Below, piece after piece: positions 8,135-57,930 of a DNA stretch of 64,000 nucleotides. The DNA is from Demequina muriae (GTDB lineage Bacteria; Actinomycetota; Actinomycetes; Actinomycetales; Demequinaceae), in assembly GCF_030418295.1 (NCBI RefSeq), contig NZ_JAUHQA010000001.1:930001-994000 (forward strand), given 5' to 3'. The notes under the pieces are model-generated. The model made no database searches and was not told the origin of the DNA. It saw only the letters and a program-made list of their open reading frames with translations. The number at the start of each line of letters is the position of its first letter. Position 1 is the first letter of the stretch. A program made the position numbers and the translations under genes.

Positions 8135-8239
8135 GCCCTTCACTACGAACCGCTGCGGCGCCGACACTCCGAACTCAGCCCCCGCATCGGCCGGTATGGA
8201 CGGCGTGTCAGGGGGAAATGGGGTTCGCAGTTGAAGGGC
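8135..8239. repeat. Nested palindromic repeat, copy A (3' of panD)
   Basis: Outer arms GCCCTTCACTACGAACC (8135-8151) and GGTTCGCAGTTGAAGGGC (8222-8239) are near-perfect complements. Inside are CGACAC, 10 bases after GAACC, and GTGTCA, 11 bases before GGTTC. The loop holds the word GCATCGGCC (8184-8192). It begins 12 bp after the panD stop. The same architecture recurs in five other intergenic sites in the window. Confidence 0.85.
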
Positions 8240-15967: not shown

Positions 15968-17986
<2,019 letters not shown>

Positions 17987-18057
17987 GGTGGTACAGAGCC
18001 TACGCGAGTGCGCAGGGCCGATTTCAAGGTTTCGCTGACGGCGTGGGGACGCTCCCG

Positions 18058-18159
18058 TCCGACAGTTTGAACCAAACGAAGCGCGACACGCCGACTACAA
18101 GAGCGACCGCCAACCCGACACGCGCGCAGCTGCCGCGATCTTGGTTCGAACTGTCGGGG
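18058..18159. repeat. Nested palindromic repeat, copy E (overlaps the DUF559 gene end)
   Basis: Outer arms TCCGACAGTTTGAACCAA (18059-18076) and TTGGTTCGAACTGTCGGGGA (18141-18160) are complementary. CGACAC lies 10 bases after GAACC, as in the other copies. The right arm forms the last ~20 codons of the DUF559 gene. It is in the same orientation as copy F, so the two directly flank that gene. Confidence 0.85.
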
Positions 18160-18985
18160 ATAGACGGCCGATGCGCAGGAGTGTCGCAACAACGTCCGCC
18201 ACGATCTCGTGGGGCCTTTCCGCGGCGTCATGGAACATGTAGCGCAAAGTGGGATACCCCTGAGTCGTCGCGGCTCGGTCTCGGTCGCCGTCGCGGGCGC
18301 GCGCTTCCTCCCCCGAATGGAACGCCTGCGAGTCGATCTCGACCACCACCACGCCCTCCACGAGGAAGTCGACTCGGCCCACGCCGCTGAGTCGGAACTG
18401 AGGCACCACGGTGAGGCCCGCCTCCACCATCTCGACCCGTGCGCACGTCTCTGAGAGCGACTCAGCCCGCGCATCGGCCATCCGAGCGAGCCAGCGACGA
18501 CGGTCGGAGGAACCGTAGACGAACCCCTGGATCGCACGCAGGTCGAGCGCCCCGACCCGGAGTGCGGCATCGATGAGTGCGAGTTGTTCGCGCGGTCCGC
18601 AGCAGAGCGCGGCGAGGTCGATGTGGTCCGCGGCCGTCCGCGGCATCGCTGGCACACGATGGACGACGACCTCCCGCACGGGTCGCTGCCGGACATGGCC
18701 CATCCCGCGCGGTTGGGGTACCGCGAGATGGACGGACCCAGGACTCGGGTAGACAGGCAGGGAGGCATCAGTGCACCACGACAGACAGCACACCTCACCG
18801 CGGAAGATACTCGCAAGCACGGTCGGCCGAGGTGTCAACGGGAGTGCGAACACACCGCGATGGGGTCGGAGGACGGTGCCGTCGCGGCAAGCATCCAGCA
18901 GCGTGCTGCGAGCGACGCCCGCTCGCTGGAGCTCAGTCCACCTCGCGACGCCTCGTCGTCGTTGCAGCGCTCGCACGGGGTCCAC
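18095..18985 (-). CDS. DUF559 endonuclease-fold protein with AbiEi-type N-terminal domain
   Basis: The product (296 aa) starts with a winged-helix-like segment (about 12-45, ARWTELQRAGVARSTLLDAC then GVFALP) of the AbiEi antitoxin-type domain and ends in a DUF559 domain (about 185-285) of the Vsr/restriction-endonuclease fold, with RVDFLVEGVVVVEIDSQAFH holding the acidic and E-x-D metal residues. The start is GTG. It interrupts the conserved hpt-ftsH order and is bracketed by repeats E and F; its last ~20 residues are encoded by repeat E. Such genes are scattered in actinobacteria and their function is unknown. An endonuclease role is inferred from the fold. Confidence 0.8.
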   Translation of the reverse strand: MDPVRALQRRRGVARWTELQRAGVARSTLLDACRDGTVLRPHRGVFALPLTPRPTVLASIFRGEVCCLSWCTDASLPVYPSPGSVHLAVPQPRGMGHVRQRPVREVVVHRVPAMPRTAADHIDLAALCCGPREQLALIDAALRVGALDLRAIQGFVYGSSDRRRWLARMADARAESLSETCARVEMVEAGLTVVPQFRLSGVGRVDFLVEGVVVVEIDSQAFHSGEEARARDGDRDRAATTQGYPTLRYMFHDAAERPHEIVADVVATLLRIGRLSPTVRTKIAAAARVSGWRSLL

Positions 18986-19088
18986 CGCGCGAGCCTGTCG
19001 CGCAGGGGATCACGCCTGCGCGATGCTGCCCGTCGGGCCGTGGATAGAACACCGTCAGCGCCGCCAGTGGACGTCGCGCGGGGCCCCT

Positions 19089-19192
19089 CCCCGACAGTCT
19101 GCACCAATCGCGGGCCGACACACCGAGTAACCTGCGTCAGATCCACGCGACCCGCAGGGCTTCGGACGGGTCTTGGTTCAAACTGTCGTGGC
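19089..19192. repeat. Nested palindromic repeat, copy F (3' of hpt)
   Basis: Outer arms CCCCGACAGTCTGCACCAA (19089-19107) and TTGGTTCAAACTGTCGTGG (19174-19192) pair with few mismatches, and CGACAC follows the left arm at the usual 10-base distance. It lies 28 bp after the hpt stop. It is a direct repeat of copy E on the other side of the DUF559 gene. The remaining ~100 bp (18986-19088) shows no gene. Confidence 0.8.
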
Positions 19193-19220
19193 GGGGCGGG
19201 CTCGGTCGGCGGCCGAGGGG

Positions 19221-19775
19221 TCAGTCTCCGTAGACCGCCGGGTTGAGGATCGCCACGAACGGCAGCGTCCGATACCGCTCCGCGTAGTCGAGGCCGTAGC
19301 CGACGACGAACTCGTTGGGGATCTCGAAGCCCAGGTACTTGACCGGGACCTCGACCTGGACGGCGTCGGGCTTGCGCAGCAGCGTCATCACCTCGACCGA
19401 GGCGGCGCCGCGCGAGCGCAGGTTTCCCAGCAGCCAGTGCAGCGTGATGCCGGTGTCGATGATGTCCTCCACGATGAGCACGTGGCGCCCGCTCAGATCG
19501 GCGTCGAGGTCCTTGAGGATCCGCACCACGCCGGAGGACTTGGTGCCCGAGCCGTAGGACGACACGGCCATCCAGTCCATCTGCACCGTGGGCGGCATGC
19601 GCCGCGCGAGGTCTGCCATCACCATGACAGCCCCCTTGAGAACGCCGACGAGCAGCAGGTCCTTGCCCTCGTAGTCCTCGCGGATCTGAGCCGAGAGAGC
19701 GTCGAGCTTGCGAGAGATGTCGTTCTCGCTGACGATCACCTTGGTGAAGTCGTCCATGTCGTACTGGGGTTCCAC
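19221..19775 (-). CDS. hpt: Hypoxanthine phosphoribosyltransferase
   Basis: The enzyme salvages hypoxanthine and guanine with PRPP. The 184-residue product has LLVGVLKGAVMVMADLAR, the flexible-loop SYGSGTKSSG, the PRPP motif VLIVEDIIDTGITL and the purine-binding KYLGFEIPNEFVVGYGLDY. The GTG at 19775 has GAGGAG 6 bases upstream, better than the internal Met at codon 7. It follows tilS by 29 bp, as in most actinobacteria, but ftsH is displaced by the DUF559 insertion. Confidence 0.97.
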   Translation of the reverse strand: MEPQYDMDDFTKVIVSENDISRKLDALSAQIREDYEGKDLLLVGVLKGAVMVMADLARRMPPTVQMDWMAVSSYGSGTKSSGVVRILKDLDADLSGRHVLIVEDIIDTGITLHWLLGNLRSRGAASVEVMTLLRKPDAVQVEVPVKYLGFEIPNEFVVGYGLDYAERYRTLPFVAILNPAVYGD

Positions 19776-53556: not shown

Positions 53557-53653
53557 GTTCACTGCGAACCACTTTTCGCGCGACACGCCGCCATGAGGGG
53601 CCGATGCGGGCGCGCACTCGGGGTGTCGATCCCCACAGGGGTTCGCAGTTGAG
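53557..53653. repeat. Nested palindromic repeat, copy B (between convergent genes)
   Basis: Outer arms around CACTGCGAACC (53560-53570) and GGTTCGCAGTTG (53640-53651); inner CGACACGCC and GGGGTGTCG; loop with GGCCGATGC (53599-53607). It fills the gap between convergent stops at 53544 and 53668. Confidence 0.85.
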
Positions 53654-53667
53654 TCGGTGGGAGGCGG

Positions 53668-55053: not shown

Positions 55054-55586
55054 GGCTTGCTCCTCTCAACCACGGGCAGCCTTTCGGGTTCGTCGGCGCT
55101 CACTCCCAGCACCGGCGCGAGCCGTTGCCGGCCCTCTGCCAGGTACTTCTTGACGGTGCCATCGCTCAGGCGCATCGCCACCGCGATGTCCGCCACCGTG
55201 AGGTCGTCGTAGAAGCGCAGCGCGACGGCGGTGCGCACGCGCGGAGGCAGCTCGGCCAGCGCCCGGCTGATCTCGTCGTGCTCCTCGACGTCGGCGGCAT
55301 GGTCGTGCGGATCGCGCGACGCGACCTTGGGGACCAGCCGGCGCCACGTAGTGTCCCGGCGGATCCCGTCGATGTGGAGCGTGCGCATGGTCGCGCGGAC
55401 GTAGCCCTCGATCGCGCGGTGGTCGTCGAGCCGCCGGCGCTTGACGAGGGTCTTCACGACCGCCGCCTGCACCAGCTCCTCCGCATCGTGATGCGAGCCG
55501 GTCAGCACGTAGCCGTAGGCGGCCAGGCGCGATCCGCCCTCGCGGTACACGTCCGCGACCACCTCAGCGATATCCGGCCTGCTCAT
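55050..55586 (-). CDS. SigE-family ECF sigma factor, copy 1
   Basis: The 178-residue protein has region 2 (LAAYGYVLTGSHHDAEELVQAAVVKT, then YVRATMRTLHIDG) and region 4 (LAELPPRVRTAVALRFYDDLTVADIAVAMRLSDGTVKKYLAEGRQRL), the SigE-family ECF pattern of Streptomyces. The ATG at 55586 has GAGGG close by. It is overlapped by the membrane-protein gene, and is a clear paralogue of 57222-57758. Confidence 0.88.
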   Translation of the reverse strand: MSRPDIAEVVADVYREGGSRLAAYGYVLTGSHHDAEELVQAAVVKTLVKRRRLDDHRAIEGYVRATMRTLHIDGIRRDTTWRRLVPKVASRDPHDHAADVEEHDEISRALAELPPRVRTAVALRFYDDLTVADIAVAMRLSDGTVKKYLAEGRQRLAPVLGVSADEPERLPVVERSKP

Positions 55587-55647: not shown

Positions 55648-55748
55648 CTTTCACTACGAACCCCTCCTCTGGCGACACGCCGCAGCATCGGGCCGAAGCA
55701 GTTGCGCATTCGGGGTGTCGCGCCCAGAAGTGGTTCGCAGTTGAGGAG
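55648..55748. repeat. Nested palindromic repeat, copy C
   Basis: Outer arms CTTTCACTACGAACC (55648-55662) and GTGGTTCGCAGTTGAGG (about 55731-55747); inner CGACACGCC and GGGGTGTCG, and a loop with CATCGGGCCGA. It lies about 35 bp after the second regulator-like gene stop (55783). Confidence 0.85.
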
Positions 55749-55782
55749 GTGAGGGGCGGCCGATGCGCGGGCTGGGTCCCGC

Positions 55783-57225: not shown

Positions 57226-57758
57226 GACCGACCCTCCGTGTCCACCACCGCGACGCGTTCGACATCGAACGTCGCGTCGTCACCCACCTCGAGCGCCAAA
57301 CGGTCGAGGGCATCCGAGAGGTACCGCTTGACCGTCCCGACGGCCAGGCCCATCTCGTGGGCCACGTCCGCGACCGTGAGGTCGTCGTAGAAGCGCAAAA
57401 CGACAGCGGTGCGCTGGCGCGGACTGAGCGCGCCGAGCGCTCTGCCCACCGCATCGGCCGCATGGATCCGTTCCGTGGCATCGGGCTGCTCGTCGCGAAC
57501 GGCCTGCCCGGGCATGAGGCGACGCCACACCTTGTCGCGGCGCAGTCCGTCGAGGTGCAGGGTGCGCATCGCGGCGCGCACGTAGCCCTCGGCCGCGGCG
57601 GCGTTCGGGATGCGGCGGCGGCGCACGAACACCTTGACGATCGCGTCCTGGACCAAGTCCTCGCCCGTGTGCTGCGAGCCCGTCAGCAGGTAGCCGTAGG
57701 CCGCGAGACGCCGGGACGCGCGGTCGAGCATCTCGCCCAGCAGCTCGTCGTCGGTCAC
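57222..57758 (-). CDS. SigE-family ECF sigma factor, copy 2
   Basis: The 178-residue protein has region 2 (LAAYGYLLTGSQHTGEDLVQDAIVKVFVRRRR, YVRAAMRTLHLDGLRRDKVWRRL) and region 4 (LGALSPRQRTAVVLRFYDDLTVADVAHEMGLAVGTVKRYLSDAL). It is the same length as copy 1 and very similar. The start is GTG with GAGGGG upstream. Two sigma/membrane pairs in tandem point to local duplication. Confidence 0.88.
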   Translation of the reverse strand: MTDDELLGEMLDRASRRLAAYGYLLTGSQHTGEDLVQDAIVKVFVRRRRIPNAAAAEGYVRAAMRTLHLDGLRRDKVWRRLMPGQAVRDEQPDATERIHAADAVGRALGALSPRQRTAVVLRFYDDLTVADVAHEMGLAVGTVKRYLSDALDRLALEVGDDATFDVERVAVVDTEGRS

Positions 57759-57828: not shown

Positions 57829-57930
57829 CCCTTAACTACGAACCACATCCTGACGCGACACCCCGTCAACCCGGCCGATGCGCGGGCTCAGCACGGGGTG
57901 TCGTCCCCCAAAGTGGTTCGCAGTTAAGGA
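57829..57930. repeat. Nested palindromic repeat, copy D (3' of topA)
   Basis: This is the clearest copy. Outer arms TTAACTACGAACCAC (57832-57846) and GTGGTTCGCAGTTAA (57913-57927); inner arms CGACACCCCGT and ACGGGGTGTCG; loop with GGCCGATGCGCGGGC (57873-57887). It lies about 10 bp after the topA stop (57939). Confidence 0.9.

Follow-up and report, generated by a model that had tools for sequence, protein, structure and literature searches.

We found that a nuclease gene of Demequina and the two like-oriented palindromes of ~70-120 bp at its sides make up one cassette, as shown by the comparison of genomes. The two palindromes in a cassette are alike in arms and length, the arms differ from cassette to cassette, and the genome also contains, at other sites, solitary palindromes with the arms of its cassette. 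We consider it probable (about 70%) that these cassettes are a repeat-and-nuclease system which follows RAYT-REPIN logic with an unrelated enzyme; the binding, cutting and spreading in this reading are deduced from sequence.

The nuclease gene and its two palindromes

The window, meaning the whole 64-kb stretch of DNA analysed, comes from a Demequina genome of 2.80 Mb (G000). Its nuclease gene (18095-18985, minus strand) encodes a protein of 296 aa. According to Pfam, the winged-helix N-terminus (residues 6-49) matches AbiEi_4 (PF13338) above the curated cut-off. The C-terminus (residues 185-269) is an MTES_1575/DUF559 Vsr-fold nuclease domain, with the matches to PF18741 and PF04480 just under their curated cut-offs, and a middle part lies between the two domains. 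The MTES_1575 REase is defined as a Vsr-fold domain in PMC3710099. E179, D206, D218 and H223 are identical in 85/85 homologues, and E216 in 80/85. In the remaining five (L071, L074, L083, L089 and L126), all of them upstream of ftsH, the nuclease E216 is replaced by Q, and these are natural candidates for a catalytically altered form.

A Pfam scan of 11 family members (E<=0.01) detected MTES_1575 in 10, AbiEi_4 in 9, DUF559 in 7 and AbiEi_3_N in 2, and no other families; an HUH/Y1 tyrosine transposase domain was found in none of the 11. Profile comparison matched the nuclease to 3hrl (E 1.9e-4), with weak matches to 3r3p, a mobile intron protein (E 0.62, nuclease half), and to AbiEi 6y8q (E 1.4). 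The PADLOC AbiEi models matched 11/11 proteins scanned with weak scores, and the PADLOC 'homing endonuclease' model matched 1/11 members. Structure prediction for the window protein and the homologue L047 gave a mean pLDDT of 38 and was set aside. PF18741 was dropped as a phylum-wide query, since it returned mostly very long proteins from open frames >1000 aa. The window protein is 78% identical to its homologue in G030 and 60% to that in the sister species G002; the values for hpt are 93% and 97%, respectively. The nearest named homologue is that of Demequina sp. NBRC 110056, and a palindrome pair is also present in the named record NZ_BBRM01000003.1. Homologues were absent from 72,556 plasmid records, 50,697 phage records and viral contigs.

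The whole cassette spans 18058..19190 (minus strand), as delimited by the identity break against G002. Its conserved neighbours are two minus-strand ORFs, ftsH on one side (15968..17986), which we used as an anchor, and hpt on the other (19221..19775), which has a match in 41/44 genomes. Palindrome E (18058..18158; arms 18060-18075 and 18141-18156) is the D copy at the 3' end of the gene, on the ftsH side. It overlaps the last ~20 codons and encodes the C-terminal PTVRTK stretch. Palindrome F (19090..19190; arms 19092-19107 and 19173-19188) is the U copy on the hpt side, with its near end 105 bp upstream of where the gene begins. Each is ~100 bp long and imperfect, with the inner motif CGACACnCCG and 16-nt outer arms (CGACAGTTTGAACCAA and CGACAGTTCGAACCAA in E, CGACAGTCTGCACCAA and CGACAGTTTGAACCAA in F), and the two have the same left-right order. 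Coordinates and arms agree with the earlier note, which had placed E at the 3' end of the gene and F beyond its 5' end, in one orientation and with one arm variant.

The arms of E and F are the only four matches in the window at 0-1 mismatch. When up to 3 mismatches were allowed, we counted 6 matches vs 1.62 expected, and 6 were reached in 1/100 shuffles. Within the window, the arm pattern alone is modest evidence; it is the comparative evidence across genomes, not these counts, that makes the arrangement far more than chance.

Four solitary palindromes lie elsewhere in the window, two of arm type TTCACTACGAACC (8137..8239 and 55650..55752), one of type TTCACTGCGAACC (53558..53660) and one of type TTAACTACGAACC (57830..57930). 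They have the outer arm TTMACTRCGAACC and the inner motif CGACACnCCG in common. The fold energy of the window copies was clearly better than that of shuffles in 3/6 (z of -3.30 for E, folded as ssDNA, -1.48 for F, and -0.91, -3.20, -1.26 and -7.06 for the copies at 8137, 53558, 55650 and 57830). Rfam had no match up to E 1 within 17900-19400.

Some other repeats were observed in the same genome. The 10-mer GGCCGATGCG (CGCATCGGCC) occurs 50 times on both strands of the 64-kb window vs 0.96 expected and is its commonest 10-mer (e.g. at 944, 5255, 53599 and 57787). It is a genome-wide iterated oligomer, and several solitary palindromes contain it in their loops. Two tandem sigma-factor-like gene units (55105-55278 and 57283-57456, similar stretches 2178 bp apart) each adjoin a palindrome, and a third palindrome is ~2.1 kb off (palindromes 53558, 55650 and 57830). 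Two like-oriented palindromes of G000 (C1:216366-216446 and 216605-216685) are 160 bp apart, too close to enclose a gene, and may represent a collapsed cassette or a tandem insertion.

Matched pairs and cassette borders at the ftsH place

Homologues were collected from 44 Demequina genomes (E<=1e-18, 87 rows) and 85 were scored, leaving out the two pieces of one broken gene in G011, which were merged. By fixed rules we searched for one inverted-arm element upstream and one downstream and scored mismatches within and between them, for same-orientation pairs. With the first criteria (score<=6), pairs were present at 39/85 homologues vs 86/7140 mispaired combinations, many of the latter between loci of one arm type, and at 0 in 5 shuffled sets of 85. 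The two elements differed in length by <=1 bp in 38/39 of these pairs, with lengths ranging over 81-118, and a length match was not required. The second criteria allowed up to 3 arm mismatches and imposed a length difference <=3. They gave pairs at 44/85 homologues vs 8/1500 mispaired at score<=6, and at 48/85 vs 23/1500 at score<=8. In the pairs listed, D lies at or past the 3' end of the gene.

Outside the genus, pairs were found at 13/27 homologues vs 2/702 mispaired. This sample came mostly from other families of the order, with one genome from another order of the class, and its count includes the re-fetched L167 and L183 in place of L134 and L136. On this point the numbers bear out the earlier note, which had proposed to look for matching inverted-arm repeats beside the homologues. 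It had also named homologues without such repeats as an argument against the idea. They do exist (41/85 miss the threshold at score 6 and 37/85 at score 8, the two closest paralogues in the window genome among them), which weakens 'always', but the association stands. Our analysis confirms that a pair at AbiEi_4/nuclease genes is the rule and not an accident, though it is not universal.

The gene is directly upstream of ftsH in 35/44 Demequina genomes. It had been taken for a break in an otherwise universal hpt-ftsH order, and this count contradicts that. A pair at score<=8 is present at 27/35 of the genes in this place. Their arms include GACAGTTTGAACC, CACTGCGAACC, CTCCGCACGG, TATCCACAC, CCGCTCAACACA, GTTTTGACACAA and CGGCTCCGCCACA, the same in both palindromes each time.

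We aligned the place between close genomes. Between G000 and G002, identity changes from 96% (18000-18049) to 60% (18050-18098) on the ftsH side and from 60% (19186-19235) to 94% (19236-19285) on the hpt side, and the drop coincides with the outer edges of the palindromes. Outside the cassette it is 88-100% in most 50-column blocks, with a lowest value of 76%. Inside, it is 38-56% over F, the promoter region and the 5' half of the gene, and 48-88% over the 3' half. G042 and G006 have an identity of 0.87-0.96 outside the cassette and 0.36-0.54 inside, G008 and G042 of 0.85-0.93 and 0.43-0.51. The ftsH-side border is less sharp for G015/G019 and G018/G023, where the outer 100 bp have 0.64 and 0.69. 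The alignments show cassettes with different arms replacing each other, or diverging very fast, at one chromosomal place, with their borders at the palindromes.

Precise empty sites had been proposed as something to look for, and empty hpt-ftsH junctions were found in G003, G016 and G007, where 99, 99 and 137 bp separate the two genes and the search rule detected no palindrome. These junctions are too diverged to define a target-site duplication. In G014 the gap is 192 bp and holds one degenerate palindrome. Its best alignments are with the D copies from six other genomes, at scores of 71-115 compared with a maximum of 51 after shuffling, and it is therefore a relict, one palindrome having remained and the rest having been lost or never having arrived.

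In G025, G031, G029 and G011 (L237, L238, L239 and L243), hpt is separated from the cassette by ~5-14 kb of other DNA, and the gene has kept its position next to ftsH (broken in G011). Because of these inserts, the cassette-side border may be an insertion hot spot. A CTCAACAC palindrome in G030 (C3:401217) was considered as an empty site of the G025/G029/G031-type cassette and ruled out, since their gene is still directly upstream of ftsH.

Arm types, protein halves and solitary copies

Next to the pairs themselves, we looked at how the arms relate to the protein parts in 1128 locus pairs, 53 of them same-arm; the locus pairs are not independent. Identity separated same-arm from other pairs with an AUC of 0.94 for the winged helix (wHTH), 0.96 for the middle part and 0.87 for the nuclease, and the logistic weights were 1.35, 1.25 and 0.27, respectively. 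The observed identity difference was reached by 0/2000 permutations for each of the three parts. The arms thus vary together with the protein, a point that the earlier note had put up for testing. At a nuclease identity of 0.7-0.9, the winged-helix identity was 0.73 in same-arm pairs (n=11) vs 0.39 in others (n=3). G002 and G026 dissociate the two parts in opposite directions. Compared with G000, G030, G041 and G001, G002, which has other arms, has a wHTH identity of 0.38-0.40 and a nuclease identity of 0.68-0.80; the values for G026, which has the same arms, are 0.60-0.65 and 0.44-0.50. Since the arms of G026 match those of G002 as well, in 11/12 positions, it is an intermediate type. In this comparison, arm type is tied more closely to the N-terminal half of the predicted protein, which resembles AbiEi, than to its nuclease half. 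An earlier measure of arm similarity was dropped, the arms being badly anchored (7/12 for same-arm loci) and the correlations ~0.1.

That the N-terminal half tracks the arm type best would also be expected if the palindromes were regulatory sites. U would be the operator of an AbiEi-like autorepressor, D a second site or a terminator, and the solitary copies other regulated sites; the arms would co-vary by co-evolution of regulator and site, with no nuclease-driven copying. AbiEi proteins bind inverted repeats and AbiEi antitoxins autoregulate that way, as described in PMC7319586, and U does lie upstream of the gene. However, U is 105 bp away from the start of the gene in the window, D is found at or past the 3' end of the gene in the pairs listed, and one genome can hold dozens of copies. 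A pure regulator would have no need of the nuclease active site, yet that site is conserved, and the replacement of whole cassettes with borders at the palindromes is left unexplained. We regard this regulatory explanation as unlikely.

The solitary copies were then counted across genomes. In the window genome, the pattern GAACC-N65-85-GGTTCG has 24 and 30 matches on the strands vs 6 and 6 in the reversed control; they comprise ~15 palindromes with the inner motif plus chance matches. The solitary copies of the window carry mostly the arms of the G002 gene, not those of their own gene, and one further complete copy with own arms was found elsewhere in the genome. The earlier note had compared the arrangement to RAYT and REP. 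This is apt as an analogy, but its suggestion of the gene as a candidate driver is not supported for the gene in its present form and the solitary copies of the window, because those carry G002-type arms.

CTSMGCACGG arms have 1-35 copies in 14/44 genomes and none in 30/44, and the reversed-pattern control was 0 in 44/44. The six genomes with a CTSMGCACGG-type gene hold 6, 10, 11, 12, 17 and 35 copies, pairs included. Copies (1-12) are also present in eight genomes with a gene of another arm type or one at which no pair was detected. G017 has 33 solitary palindromes. CTCAACAC arms have 4-5 copies in the three genomes with such a gene and 0 in 37; copies in the four relatives G027 (4), G030 (5), G041 (3) and G001 (1) were found with no matching gene. 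CGAACC matches number 6-25 in the eight genomes whose gene beside ftsH has arms of this type and 0-6 in 32 genomes, with 0-7 in the control; G021 (9), G043 (9), G039 (18) and G034 (20) have them too. In G034 and G039 these are CGAACC-N64-74-GGTTCG matches, yet a gene with arms of this type was not found in either genome. Among the copies in the matches listed, the outer arm bases that were absent from the search pattern fit the genome's own gene best in 7/7 genomes, with an agreement of 0.51-0.91 vs 0.10-0.51 for other genes. TTCGCTCCGCACGGT copies occur in G015, G018 and G010, whose ftsH genes have TATCCACAC-type arms (G015 and G018) or no detected pair (G010). We infer that such unmatched palindromes, i.e. 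these TTCGCTCCGCACGGT copies, the TTCACTACGAACC copies of the window and others, are remnants of a former specificity.

One orthologous solitary site (G000 C1:812261 and G002 C6:2223765) has different arm types in well conserved flanks, and a second has the same arm type in both genomes. At a third (window 8137 vs G030) the alignment is poor and the arms differ by eye only. Counting the first two of these, three solitary sites were compared between G000 and G002; two had a palindrome in both genomes and the remaining one an unbroken alignment, with no fresh insertion. Neither a target-site duplication nor a transposition event was found at the sites compared.

Copies spread in this way could also be terminators or 3'-end RNA hairpins dispersed by another enzyme (e.g. 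a RAYT elsewhere), with the gene merely travelling between two of them. By eye, the window copies lie ~10-35 bp from a stop codon, there is one terminator-like stem inside E, and PMC3733652 describes REPs as located mainly downstream of coding regions. We hold this to be quite improbable, since it leaves unexplained why arms and length are shared at the loci of one gene family and differ between loci, and why the arm type follows the AbiEi-nuclease protein. A grid control of 591 positions over ~256 kb also speaks against it, as its 2 matched pairs both belong to genes of the AbiEi_4/nuclease family; the grid was coarse and missed real cassettes too. We hold it to be very improbable that diversifying selection (e.g. 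on an anti-phage gene) led strains to swap cassettes through homologous recombination within hpt and ftsH, with the palindromes homogenised only by short-range gene conversion: this fits the shared place in 35/44 genomes, the sister species with different cassettes and the weak PADLOC AbiEi matches in 11/11 proteins, but leaves unexplained both the solitary copies of the cassette's arm type and the borders at the palindromes' edges.

Proposed mechanism and known systems

In the repeat-and-nuclease system that we favour, the N-terminal winged helix would bind the palindrome arms and the C-terminal Vsr/EDxHD-like nuclease would cut or nick at or near the bound palindrome. Repair of the break from another copy would then copy and homogenise the palindromes in the style of homing or gene conversion. 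This would keep the flanking copies alike and seed the solitary ones. A cassette of new specificity would take over the place of the old one, and solitary copies of the old specificity would remain as relics, as in the window. The protein itself would be the simplest agent, since cutting and repair would keep the copies alike, tie them to the protein and spread them. It joins a winged helix of the type with which AbiEi antitoxins bind inverted repeats (PMC7319586) to a nuclease that, going by a weak profile match, may have a homing endonuclease among its relatives.

A more specific version, which we put forward only tentatively, is a homing-like nuclease that targets its own dispersed palindrome. 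Its AbiEi-like half would set the arm specificity and its Vsr-fold half would break the palindromes, which repair would rewrite in place. Arm types would sweep the genome and cassettes would displace one another at a fixed place, and Actinomycetota might thus hold a second REPIN-type world that evolved independently.

What the cassettes display is the REP-RAYT signature, i.e. the flanking pair, the co-variation and the dispersed copies, for a protein that joins a PD-(D/E)XK/Vsr-type nuclease to a DNA-binding domain like that of antitoxins. If the favoured reading is true, it gives a function to widespread 'AbiEi / DUF559' proteins that are now filed as antitoxins or unknowns. It would also offer many natural protein-palindrome pairs of different specificities from which a recognition code could be read, and the copying and homogenising of palindromic repeats would become testable.

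We found no link between AbiEi_4/DUF559/MTES_1575 genes and palindromic repeats in the open-access literature searched. Among known systems, the EDxHD/Vsr-fold homing endonucleases (I-Bth0305I type) may be similar, going by the weak 3r3p match and the single PADLOC 'homing endonuclease' hit. Unlike them, the Demequina gene is without intron or intein, is joined to an AbiEi-like DNA-binding half and is flanked by palindromes. The AbiEi antitoxins (type IV TA) share the N-terminal AbiEi_4 domain, but the C-terminus of the Demequina protein is a nuclease and not an antitoxicity domain. There is also no adjacent AbiEii (DUF1814) toxin gene, the neighbours being hpt and ftsH (window, G030, G027 and G001). 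MITEs and IS elements resemble the cassette in having palindromic units at both gene ends and solitary copies. In contrast to theirs, the cassette ends are whole palindromes in direct orientation, and within the genus the gene stays at a single conserved position.

RAYTs belong to the HUH/Y1 enzymes (IS200/IS605 type), and to our knowledge it is with these HUH (RAYT) enzymes that REP-type palindromes have been associated until now. In RAYT-REP systems the gene is flanked by two palindromic repeats, repeats are dispersed in the genome, and repeat and protein co-evolve, according to PMC2817692 and PMC3116915. PMC2817692 further describes RAYT orthologues that keep their position while as many as three point mutations arise in their REPs, the gene evolving faster than its neighbours. 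The CGTC REPs are said in PMC3733652 to be without a dedicated transposase. The Demequina cassettes are alike in the flanking repeat pair, in repeats that differ between orthologues in place, in the co-variation with the protein and in the dispersed copies. As to the abundance of the cognate repeat, all six genomes with a CTSMGCACGG gene have 6-35 copies and 30/44 genomes have none, but eight more have copies with no such gene. They are unlike RAYT-REP in that the protein is AbiEi_4/MTES_1575/DUF559 and not HUH/Y1, that the ~100-bp units are like-oriented (same-orientation pairs alone were scored) whereas the RAYT flanking repeats are inverted, and that the arms change almost completely between loci. 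Classed by logic alone, the system could be filed as a REP-RAYT variant. Since its enzyme is unrelated to RAYTs and it lacks two defining RAYT-REP features, the HUH enzyme and the inverted repeats, we would call it categorically new; because enzyme and repeat orientation differ, it would be RAYT-REP-like in its working and not a member of that group.
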